Source: Siniperca chuatsi | Taxonomy: Eukaryota > Chordata > Actinopteri > Centrarchiformes > Sinipercidae | Assembly (NCBI RefSeq): GCF_020085105.1 | Contig: NC_058063.1 | Span: 22,725,066 to 22,789,065 of the forward strand | Length of the DNA stretch: 64,000 nt | Direction: 5' to 3' | In this document: piece by piece, positions 57,401 through 60,400 of the stretch | How the letters are laid out: each line of letters begins with the position of its first letter | How positions within the stretch are numbered: the stretch's first letter is position 1 | The notes under the pieces: generated by a model | Database searches by the model: none | Seen by the model: the letters and a program-made list of their open reading frames with translations, nothing else | Told to the model about the DNA's origin: nothing | Program-made: the position numbers and the translations under genes

Positions 57401-60400
57401 TGTCGTCTGTCTTTCTCTCTCACTGATTGTCATAGTCTCTCACCCGTTTCTCTCCTGCAGGCCAAACCTCGCTGCGTTGACTGTAAAGTTTTCTGTGTGG
57501 AACAGGTATAAATTTCAGGAAACAACAGAAACTGTTCCTGTTGAGGATGTCCTCGTCCACCCTAGGTATGCATACGTGTTTTTATGACCATTTATTACAT
57601 TAGGTTAACTTAGTGCTGCTTGTATGGCATGCCAGGGTGGACTTGATAGGCGATCAACCTTAAAGTTATTAGTTGAAATTATATATTGGAGAAGGTTTAG
57701 CTTTTTTCTTAGGAAGGCTAATAAGTGGCTGCTTCTCTTCCCACAGGAATTTACAGCAGTTTGTATCAACACCAACAGAAAACAGTGTTTGAGGGGAAAA
57801 AGAAACCATTAAAAAAGGAAGCTGTTTCAGGGCAAAATATTAATTTATAAAGAAAACAATTTACTTTAGTGTTTTTGCATTTTATTATAATCCTGAATTA
57901 ATATTGGATTATGTTGTAGAGAGAGCGAAGTTCTGATCTGAATTCAATGACAATAAATGTCACTTGGATCGATAGTGAAAGTGAAGGTGGTGAAGCTCTA
58001 CTGGTTGTAAGGCTATGATAAGGATAGGTTTCTGTCAGTTATTAAAAGTGGCAAACAGATACATAAAGTAAAATGTCGTCAGCATACTGTGAATTTGAAA
58101 TAAATAAATGATGCTCAAAAGTCTGATATCATGGCTCAAAAAACAACGCAAAAATTTAACGGAAAAGGGACACTCATCATGTCTGGTCTGGTCAGGTGTA
58201 ACAGAACTGAATTTTGCAGCATTTATCACGGCAAATTTGTTATTTGCCCTTCATCATTAAAATAAATATTGCAAAGCATTATTTCAGGTAAAGATGAGAG
58301 CAATAATCTAAAACTTAAACGATGTAAATAATGAAATCACACTGGCACTAACCATCATGTCTAAATCACCCACTGCCTCAAATAAAGGTACAAACCCAAC
58401 ACCCATGAGAACGACATCGCCCTGGTGCGGCTGAAGAAATTCCCATTCTCAGAGGAATGTTTGAGTAACAACCCTGCAGTCAGCCCTGTCTGTGTTCCCT
58501 GGACAACCAGGCTCTTCCATCCCAACCACACCTGCACCATCTCTGGATGGGGACAAGATGCAGGTACAACAGCATGCCAGCGTGCTAATAATCTACTTCT
58601 AACTTGTCATTTCATTTCTCTAGTTAGTGGTTAGCCAAATGTGGCCTCTGCTGAATGTATGTAATAATGCTACGGTCACATGAGAGAGAGAAGGTTAGTT
58701 ACAGAGTTTGTTAGTTAATTGGTAAGTTAAGTGGTCAAAATGGAGAACATAATGTGGCACATTCAAGAACATGAAGTCTTTCAGGCAGCTTTGTTTCAAG
58801 CTGAAATATAGTTTTGCTACTGATGCTCATCTACAGTATGTTCAGCGACAACATCAGTGCTGATTATGAATCAATAAATAACAATCTTAAAGGTTGAGTT
58901 AATGTTTGCTCACTGGCTGAGGTTGCGTGTTGTTTTAGATACCTGCCAGACATGAAATACGATGCAGGAAGGTCAGTTTCAGTAACCGATCCATGTGTTC
59001 GAAGGCTTTTCAGTGACCTACAATGATGGATTACTAGTCGATGAAAACATTTACCTCCGTTGATTAAACATGGCGGAACTGAAAAGACAGAAGATAACGA
59101 GTGAATCCTGAAAATTTCAGAATTTGAAGTTTGGCCAACCCTGGTTTAATCTTTCACTGCGTTGACTCAGCACCTGCCAGGTGGTTTTTGCCAGACGACC
59201 CTGCATTTTGTCCCCTGAGCCCTCTATGTGTGGCATCAAATAAATTCACATCCTTCAATATGACACAACATGTCAACTTAATTTTGTGTCTCAAAACCAT
59301 ATAGCCGCACAGGATTCTTGTCATTTTTACATGCTTGTAACTCACTAAAACAGCTCACTGCATGATGCAGCATAGAAACTGTTCAAGACAAGACTAATCA
59401 ATTTACAGGTTAAAGAACATAGCTAAACCTGCATTCACACCAATAAACAATGCGTTAGCATGTCAACATAATCATAGTTTAGTTTATAATGTTGAGTTAA
59501 CATGCTGTGTTAGCATTAATCTCAGTGTAAGCCAACAGCTGATGCTGATGGGAATTCAGACATTAGTTTTAGAAGTATCCTGTCATGAATTTACTGTAAA
59601 TTCTCAGTGTCTGAGCCCTTTATTGACCTCAACTGCAGAGAGAACCACGCCTTTATCTGAAACCGGCTTACGTATATTAGAGTCAGGGTTTATTTCCAAC
59701 TTCCTCTATTTGATACCGGTAAGTGTTTTTTGTTTAACATATTTTAGTAAGAAACCTCCATCTTATCTGCTTGTGTTTTAATTTGCTGTTGCAAACTCAA
59801 CACTTCATCCATGTCTACCTGTTGTCATGATAAATGTCTGTTGTCCCTGTTGTTCTAAAGATAGAGTTCAGTGCATTATGCTGAATTTACCATGTGAGCC
59901 ATTGTTGTACACATTATACACTGTTCTGATATCCTAACAATGGTACTGATGACTGATCTCTCTGTAGATAGTAGACTGTCTCGGGTCCTACAGTGGGCCA
60001 ACGTGTCCCTCACTGAAGACTGTCAGAGAATCTACAATGACAGCTTTAAACCCGGCATGATCTGTGCAGGTAGGTGTGCTCGTATATCAGTGCCTTAGTG
60101 TTTATTTATGAAAAGTCTCCATGGAAGGTTTGTTTATGTGTTCAGGTGATCTGGATGGCAGTGTGGGCGCCTGTCAGGGGGATAATGGAGGTCCTCTGGT
60201 GTGTGAGGATGAACTTGGTGTTTCTTACCTGTGGGGGATTGTCAGCTGGGGGCAGGGATGTGGCCAGCCGGGATTTCCTGGAGTTTATACACAGGTAAAA
60301 TATTTACCATCAAATTACTTGTTTCTCCTGAGGTTGAAATACAGGTAAAATGTATAATATGATGGTAGGATTTTAACCACTGGTGTCCGCTGAAGAGACT

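Follow-up and report, generated by a model that had tools for sequence, protein, structure and literature searches.

The window analyzed here, by which we mean the whole stretch of 64,000 nucleotides that also sets our numbering, lies on one contig of an assembly that comprises 65 contigs and totals 718.8 Mb. It contains a full factor I gene, hereafter copy A, and the beginning of a second one, copy B. Copy A occupies 48489..61310 on the forward strand, as do all of its features given below, and was modeled as 17 coding exons encoding 611 amino acids. The model draws on GT-AG borders, the open frame and Pfam domains: all introns start with GT and end with AG, the phases agree, and the sole stop is the last codon. 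Exon 1 (48489-48548) encodes a hydrophobic N-terminus that resembles the product of copy B exon 1 and, judged by eye, looks like a signal peptide. Exons 2-4 (49754-49821, 49905-50058, 51361-51424) encode the FIMAC domain (Pfam CFAI_FIMAC_N and Kazal_CFAI), exons 5-6 (51546-51714, 52950-53140) the SRCR domain, and exons 7-8 (53226-53333, 54565-54678) two LDLa domains (Ldl_recept_a, two stretches). These are followed, again with GT-AG borders, by exons 9-11 (55239-55274, 55436-55456, 55939-56084), 12-13 (56240-56343, 57461-57565) and 14-15 (58388-58563, 59968-60069), by the active-site exon 16 (60146-60294), and by exon 17 (61242-61310). The basic RFKR site, at which heavy and light chain would be separated, is encoded at 56046..56057 and precedes VVGG.

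All of these Pfam domains, and Trypsin, scored above cut-off, in the order that the factor I family requires (FIMAC, SRCR, two LDLa, trypsin). Three PDB sequences matched copy A at E <= 1e-60 (2xrc, 9b3h, 5o32), and all three are factor I. By homology, copy A is a member of the factor I family. It is like factor I of human (2xrc) and grass carp (CiCFI) in domain order, basic cleavage site and best PDB match, but differs from both in being without Ser195 and Asp189.

Between exons 12 and 13, a 57-nt stretch (57283-57339) is flanked by AG and GT and runs on in frame into exon 13. It was left outside the gene model, and no counterpart in copy B was seen among the matches listed; it may possibly be a cassette exon of copy A.

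The two replaced residues lie in exon 16, to which the first-pass annotation had already assigned 60146-60294. In the frame set by the 17 GT-AG exons, as read from one assembly, residue 547 is Gly (GGC, 60166..60168) in place of Asp189, and residue 553 is Asn (AAT, 60184..60186) in place of Ser195. They align with Asp and Ser, respectively, in copy B, in human factor I (PDB 2xrc) and in the factor I chain 9b3h; the human counterparts are D519, a number obtained by counting along the alignment, and S525. The loss of both the S1 aspartate and the catalytic serine, as first proposed from the letters alone, thus agrees with the alignment. The same proposal held that each codon is a single transition from the expected one. 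This is correct for GGC against GAC, and AAT is indeed one change from AGT, but it is two changes from the AGC that encodes the serine in copy B. The human triad is His380-Asp429-Ser525 (PMC9127439), and among the fish factor I proteins aligned in the grass carp study the triad and the S1 aspartate are reported as highly conserved (PMC9569754). In copy A, His57 (CAC, 56333..56335) and Asp102 (GAC, 58413..58415) are present, as is the aspartate at position 194 (GAT, 60181..60183), so that, together with RFKR, the 17 exons and the open frame, the remaining hallmarks are intact, as had been claimed.

Trypsin-like enzymes without Ser195 should not cleave, and no cleavage would be expected of copy A. 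Judged by its residues, copy A is not an active factor I, because the two residues that define one are absent.

When both strands of the 718.8 Mb assembly were searched for the pattern C-x-G-D-Asn-G-G-P, copy A exon 16 was the only site, and the reversed-pattern control gave none. With any residue allowed at position 195, the pattern occurred in 25 places (14 with Ser, one with Asn, which is copy A, and 10 with other residues), well below the number of genome trypsin matches, so the pattern count is no census. Most of the 10 places with other residues are probably chance occurrences, since the reversed control gave 19 and none of the 10 was among the trypsin matches listed.

Copy B, which the first-pass annotation did not contain, begins 2.1 kb downstream of copy A and keeps both Asp189 and Ser195, with the active-site sequence DGSVDSCQGDSGGP. 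Its exon 1 lies at 63422..63481 (+), and the gene runs beyond the end of the window, with its last exon at 80659-80727 when the window numbering is continued. The protease exons of copy B occur twice, in two blocks arranged head to tail (72062-76032 and 76032-79889, same numbering). Aligned over 3,827 bases, the blocks show 16 mismatches as well as 22 gaps, and 11 of the 13 one-base gaps fall in homopolymers; the frame is broken in exons 15 and 16 of the first block and in exon 11 of the second. This pattern suggests that the block pair arose either through misassembly or through a duplication that is very recent. The copy B protein used here (619 residues) was assembled from in-frame exons of both blocks, and the exact gene structure is provisional. 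Going by its residues, copy B should be active. The two copies share 40 of 40 cysteines, with 4 predicted N-glycosylation motifs in copy A and 7 in copy B, and upstream of the start codon their similarity extends for about 44 bases and little further. When the genome was searched in six frames, no third factor I copy appeared among 110 matches from the 138 scored of 188 candidates, which is a lower bound; elsewhere matches were confined to general trypsin parts, and no other multi-exon factor I place was found.

With a dS of about 0.5, A and B are old duplicates. Over 585 aligned codons dS was 0.50 and dN 0.22, and the resulting ratio of 0.43 is a pairwise value that blends both branches as well as the time before inactivation. 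It was unevenly distributed: 0.48 in the heavy chain, 0.42 in exons 12-15 and 0.07 in exons 16-17 (Fisher tests of the last region on rounded counts: P 2.4e-4 versus exons 12-15, P 4.4e-5 versus the heavy chain). Ratios for single exons varied and rest on few sites, for example 0.98 in exon 5 on a dS of 0.21 and 1.43 in exon 1. In exons 16-17 dS was high (0.62) and dN low (0.04), so their near identity reflects constraint on the protein. Recent gene conversion was considered as its cause and rejected, since dS there is as high as elsewhere. This constraint is not peculiar to copy A, as these two exons are conserved in B too. Together with the lack of any stop or frameshift, the 40 kept cysteines and the pairwise ratio of 0.43 (0.07 in exons 16-17), these results bear out the earlier view that copy A is not an ordinary decayed pseudogene.

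Within exons 16-17, 7 of 72 residues differ between the copies, and 5 of these 7 fall among 17 positions that we take to form the active site and the S1 wall (chymotrypsin 189-195, 214-220 and 225-228; hypergeometric P 0.007, for a set picked once the mutations were known). According to the outgroup alignment, the changes in exon 16 assignable to copy A are at positions 189, 195 and 217, while the change at position 190 falls to B, and that at position 219 could be assigned to neither copy. Across 529 aligned residues, 40 changes are specific to A and 15 to B (binomial P 0.001); the corresponding numbers were 18 to 7 in the heavy chain, 20 to 6 in the protease exons, and 30 to 10 where both outgroups agreed. 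Splitting dN by these residue counts and halving dS gives rough branch ratios of about 0.6 for A and about 0.24 for B, which are products of arithmetic with no fitted model. The faster rate of A would be compatible with adaptation following the duplication as well as with partial relaxation. In separate comparisons, the exon 16 peptide of copy A matched 25 loci in a contig collection, all with bacterial record titles, and that of copy B matched 53 loci in viral contigs; none of these loci helps to date the two changes.

How long an unselected copy A would be expected to stay intact was explored in computer simulations of neutral decay. Starting from the coding sequence of copy A, we simulated 2,000 copies per point, with half of the substitutions being transitions, 0.1 indels per substitution (80% frame-shifting), and the 32 splice dinucleotides included. 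The gene was intact in 26.9% of copies at 0.005 neutral substitutions per site, in 6.7% at 0.01, in 0.4% at 0.02 and in none at 0.03. At the same distances, the proportion of copies with both key codons altered was 0, 0.1%, 0.25% and 0.3%. For comparison, half of the dS between A and B is about 0.25. Given how fast the simulated gene decays relative to that distance, there are two alternatives: selection has preserved copy A ever since inactivation, or inactivation falls within about the final twentieth of the gene's history.

We hypothesize that copy A is a pseudoprotease paralogue which would dock on C3b with a cofactor and compete there with copy B, a reading whose chances we put slightly below even. 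By analogy with inactive human factor I the competitor mechanism is plausible, and the presence of a copy with active residues next to copy A makes it more so. According to this hypothesis copy A would be secreted and cut at RFKR, and would then dock on C3b or C4b together with factor H-like cofactors. Never cleaving and releasing, it would hold the site, and copy B would be slowed. Slowing of copy B would in turn raise complement activity, such that A would oppose factor I in the way that factor H-related proteins oppose factor H. In its stronger form, which we advance only tentatively and on the same analogy, copy A would be a long-standing, selected pseudoprotease, derived from the tandem duplication, that serves as a plasma antagonist of factor I and keeps C3b active on cofactor-rich surfaces.

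Published work on human variants lends support to such a mechanism. Human factor I carrying S525A forms stable, long-lived C3b:FH:FI complexes without cutting, and lowers cleavage by the wild type in vitro in a dose-dependent manner, by 15% when equimolar and by 20% at twofold amount (PMC9832388). Human H380R binds C3b:FH without cleavage, and D519N is predicted to act likewise (PMC9832388). By alignment, S525 and D519 are the very positions changed in copy A. These results should be carried over to the fish protein with some caution. The inhibition by S525A is modest, and a competitor would therefore have to be abundant. Moreover, the inactive human variant I340T showed no detectable C3b:FH complex and still competed (PMC9832388), so inactivity alone is no guarantee that a complex forms. 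Features of our own data also count against the competitor reading: with two copies from one species, the constraint may pre-date the two changes in A, the constraint on exons 16-17 is shared with B, and a ratio near 0.6 on the A branch, with 40 residues changed in A against 15 in B, allows for some relaxation.

The second alternative from the simulations would imply that copy A was an active and partly redundant enzyme which lost its active site only a short time ago, perhaps still polymorphically, and has just started to decay. An active copy B next door and the faster evolution of A are in keeping with such a history, and at 0.005 and 0.01 neutral substitutions per site 27% and 6.7% of the simulated genes, respectively, were still intact. 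On the other hand, it demands two separate changes at key residues with no other damage, when both codons had changed in only 0.1% of copies at 0.01, and it leaves a narrow span, roughly one twentieth of the branch, for neutral drift with the gene intact. We regard a loss this recent as the main rival reading, doubtful but a serious possibility.

Copy A could also have been retained as a pseudoprotease for a purpose that leaves B at full speed, as a decoy for microbes that recruit factor I or as a scaffold built on the heavy chain, all of whose domains it keeps. Microbial recruitment is reported for factor I and for factor H together with factor I (PMC12080921; PMC9243006), the example in the latter report being Edwardsiella tarda with mouse serum (PMC9243006). 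However, a fish pathogen protein that binds copy A would be hypothetical, and competition is the simpler account insofar as inactive human factor I does compete with the active enzyme (PMC9832388). A decoy or scaffold role therefore appears unlikely.

It is very improbable that the true bases at both codons encode Asp and Ser and that the assembly is in error. The one-base homopolymer gaps and frame errors in the nearby copy B block do indicate that the local consensus is imperfect, but those errors are mostly indels, of which the 17 exons of copy A have none. Copy A also lies outside the duplicated block, and two substitution errors at exactly these codons would be an unlikely coincidence. 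Asn at position 195 is not known to serve as a nucleophile in any trypsin-like enzyme. That copy A still catalyzes, with changed chemistry or specificity, is hardly credible despite the kept His57, Asp102, Asp194 and cleavage site, given that human S525A is inactive (PMC9832388).

Returning to the reading of copy A as a competitor, its closest parallel in operation is FHR-1, a relative proposed to compete with the regulator, which has been termed "deregulation" (PMC7959842). The likeness is one of how the proteins would work: FHR-1 belongs to another protein family and acts against factor H, and normal FHR-1 is described as only a moderate deregulator (PMC7959842). Loss of catalysis with gain of a non-enzymatic role is also known from other pseudoproteases of the trypsin fold, including haptoglobin, HGF, azurocidin and the insect CLIP-domain homologues, which are not factor I and have other domain architectures. 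Within the factor I family, isotypes have reportedly been described from carp and shark. Inactive human factor I is either a laboratory construct (S525A) or the product of disease alleles (H380R, D519N), whereas copy A is a separate gene with an active one as its neighbor. In fish, the C3 and factor H families are expanded (PMC7768046), and the complement gene-count survey in section 14 of that article has no factor I column. CFI was found to be positively selected in a grouper (PMC9775623) and in a hairtail (PMC10298005), which has no bearing on dead copies.

A natural inactive factor I paralogue was not found in the literature on duplicated or inactive factor I, as far as titles and the starts of abstracts show among the matches listed, which suggests that the case may be new to the literature. 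As read from the assembly, copy A is real, intact and unusual, a pseudoprotease paralogue within the known factor I family. Factor I is normally viewed as a complement brake that acts by cutting. If the competitor hypothesis is true, a vertebrate would have an opponent of this brake encoded in its own genome, a "factor I-related" deregulator in parallel to the factor H-related proteins. Copy A would then also be the natural equivalent of the dominant-negative variants under study in human macular disease.

Several other features were observed in and near the window. At the left edge, 229-915 and 2168-2446 contain WDR55-like exons, for which the Pfam WDR55 score was below cut-off because only pieces were given. 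Lysine- and glutamate-rich frames occur at 10021-13661, and two frames at 14944-15511 contain a LEDGF domain above cut-off. A long minisatellite-like array at 30526-32208 shows multiple open frames, on both strands. Upstream of copy A, 37061-37483 and 40533-40853 contain a TTC39-type protein exon (Iml2-TPR_39) and, below cut-off, a weak TPR match. Downstream of copy B, at 95932-96811 in the continued window numbering, there is a cysteine-rich tandem repeat (NEMCVFLGQCV).
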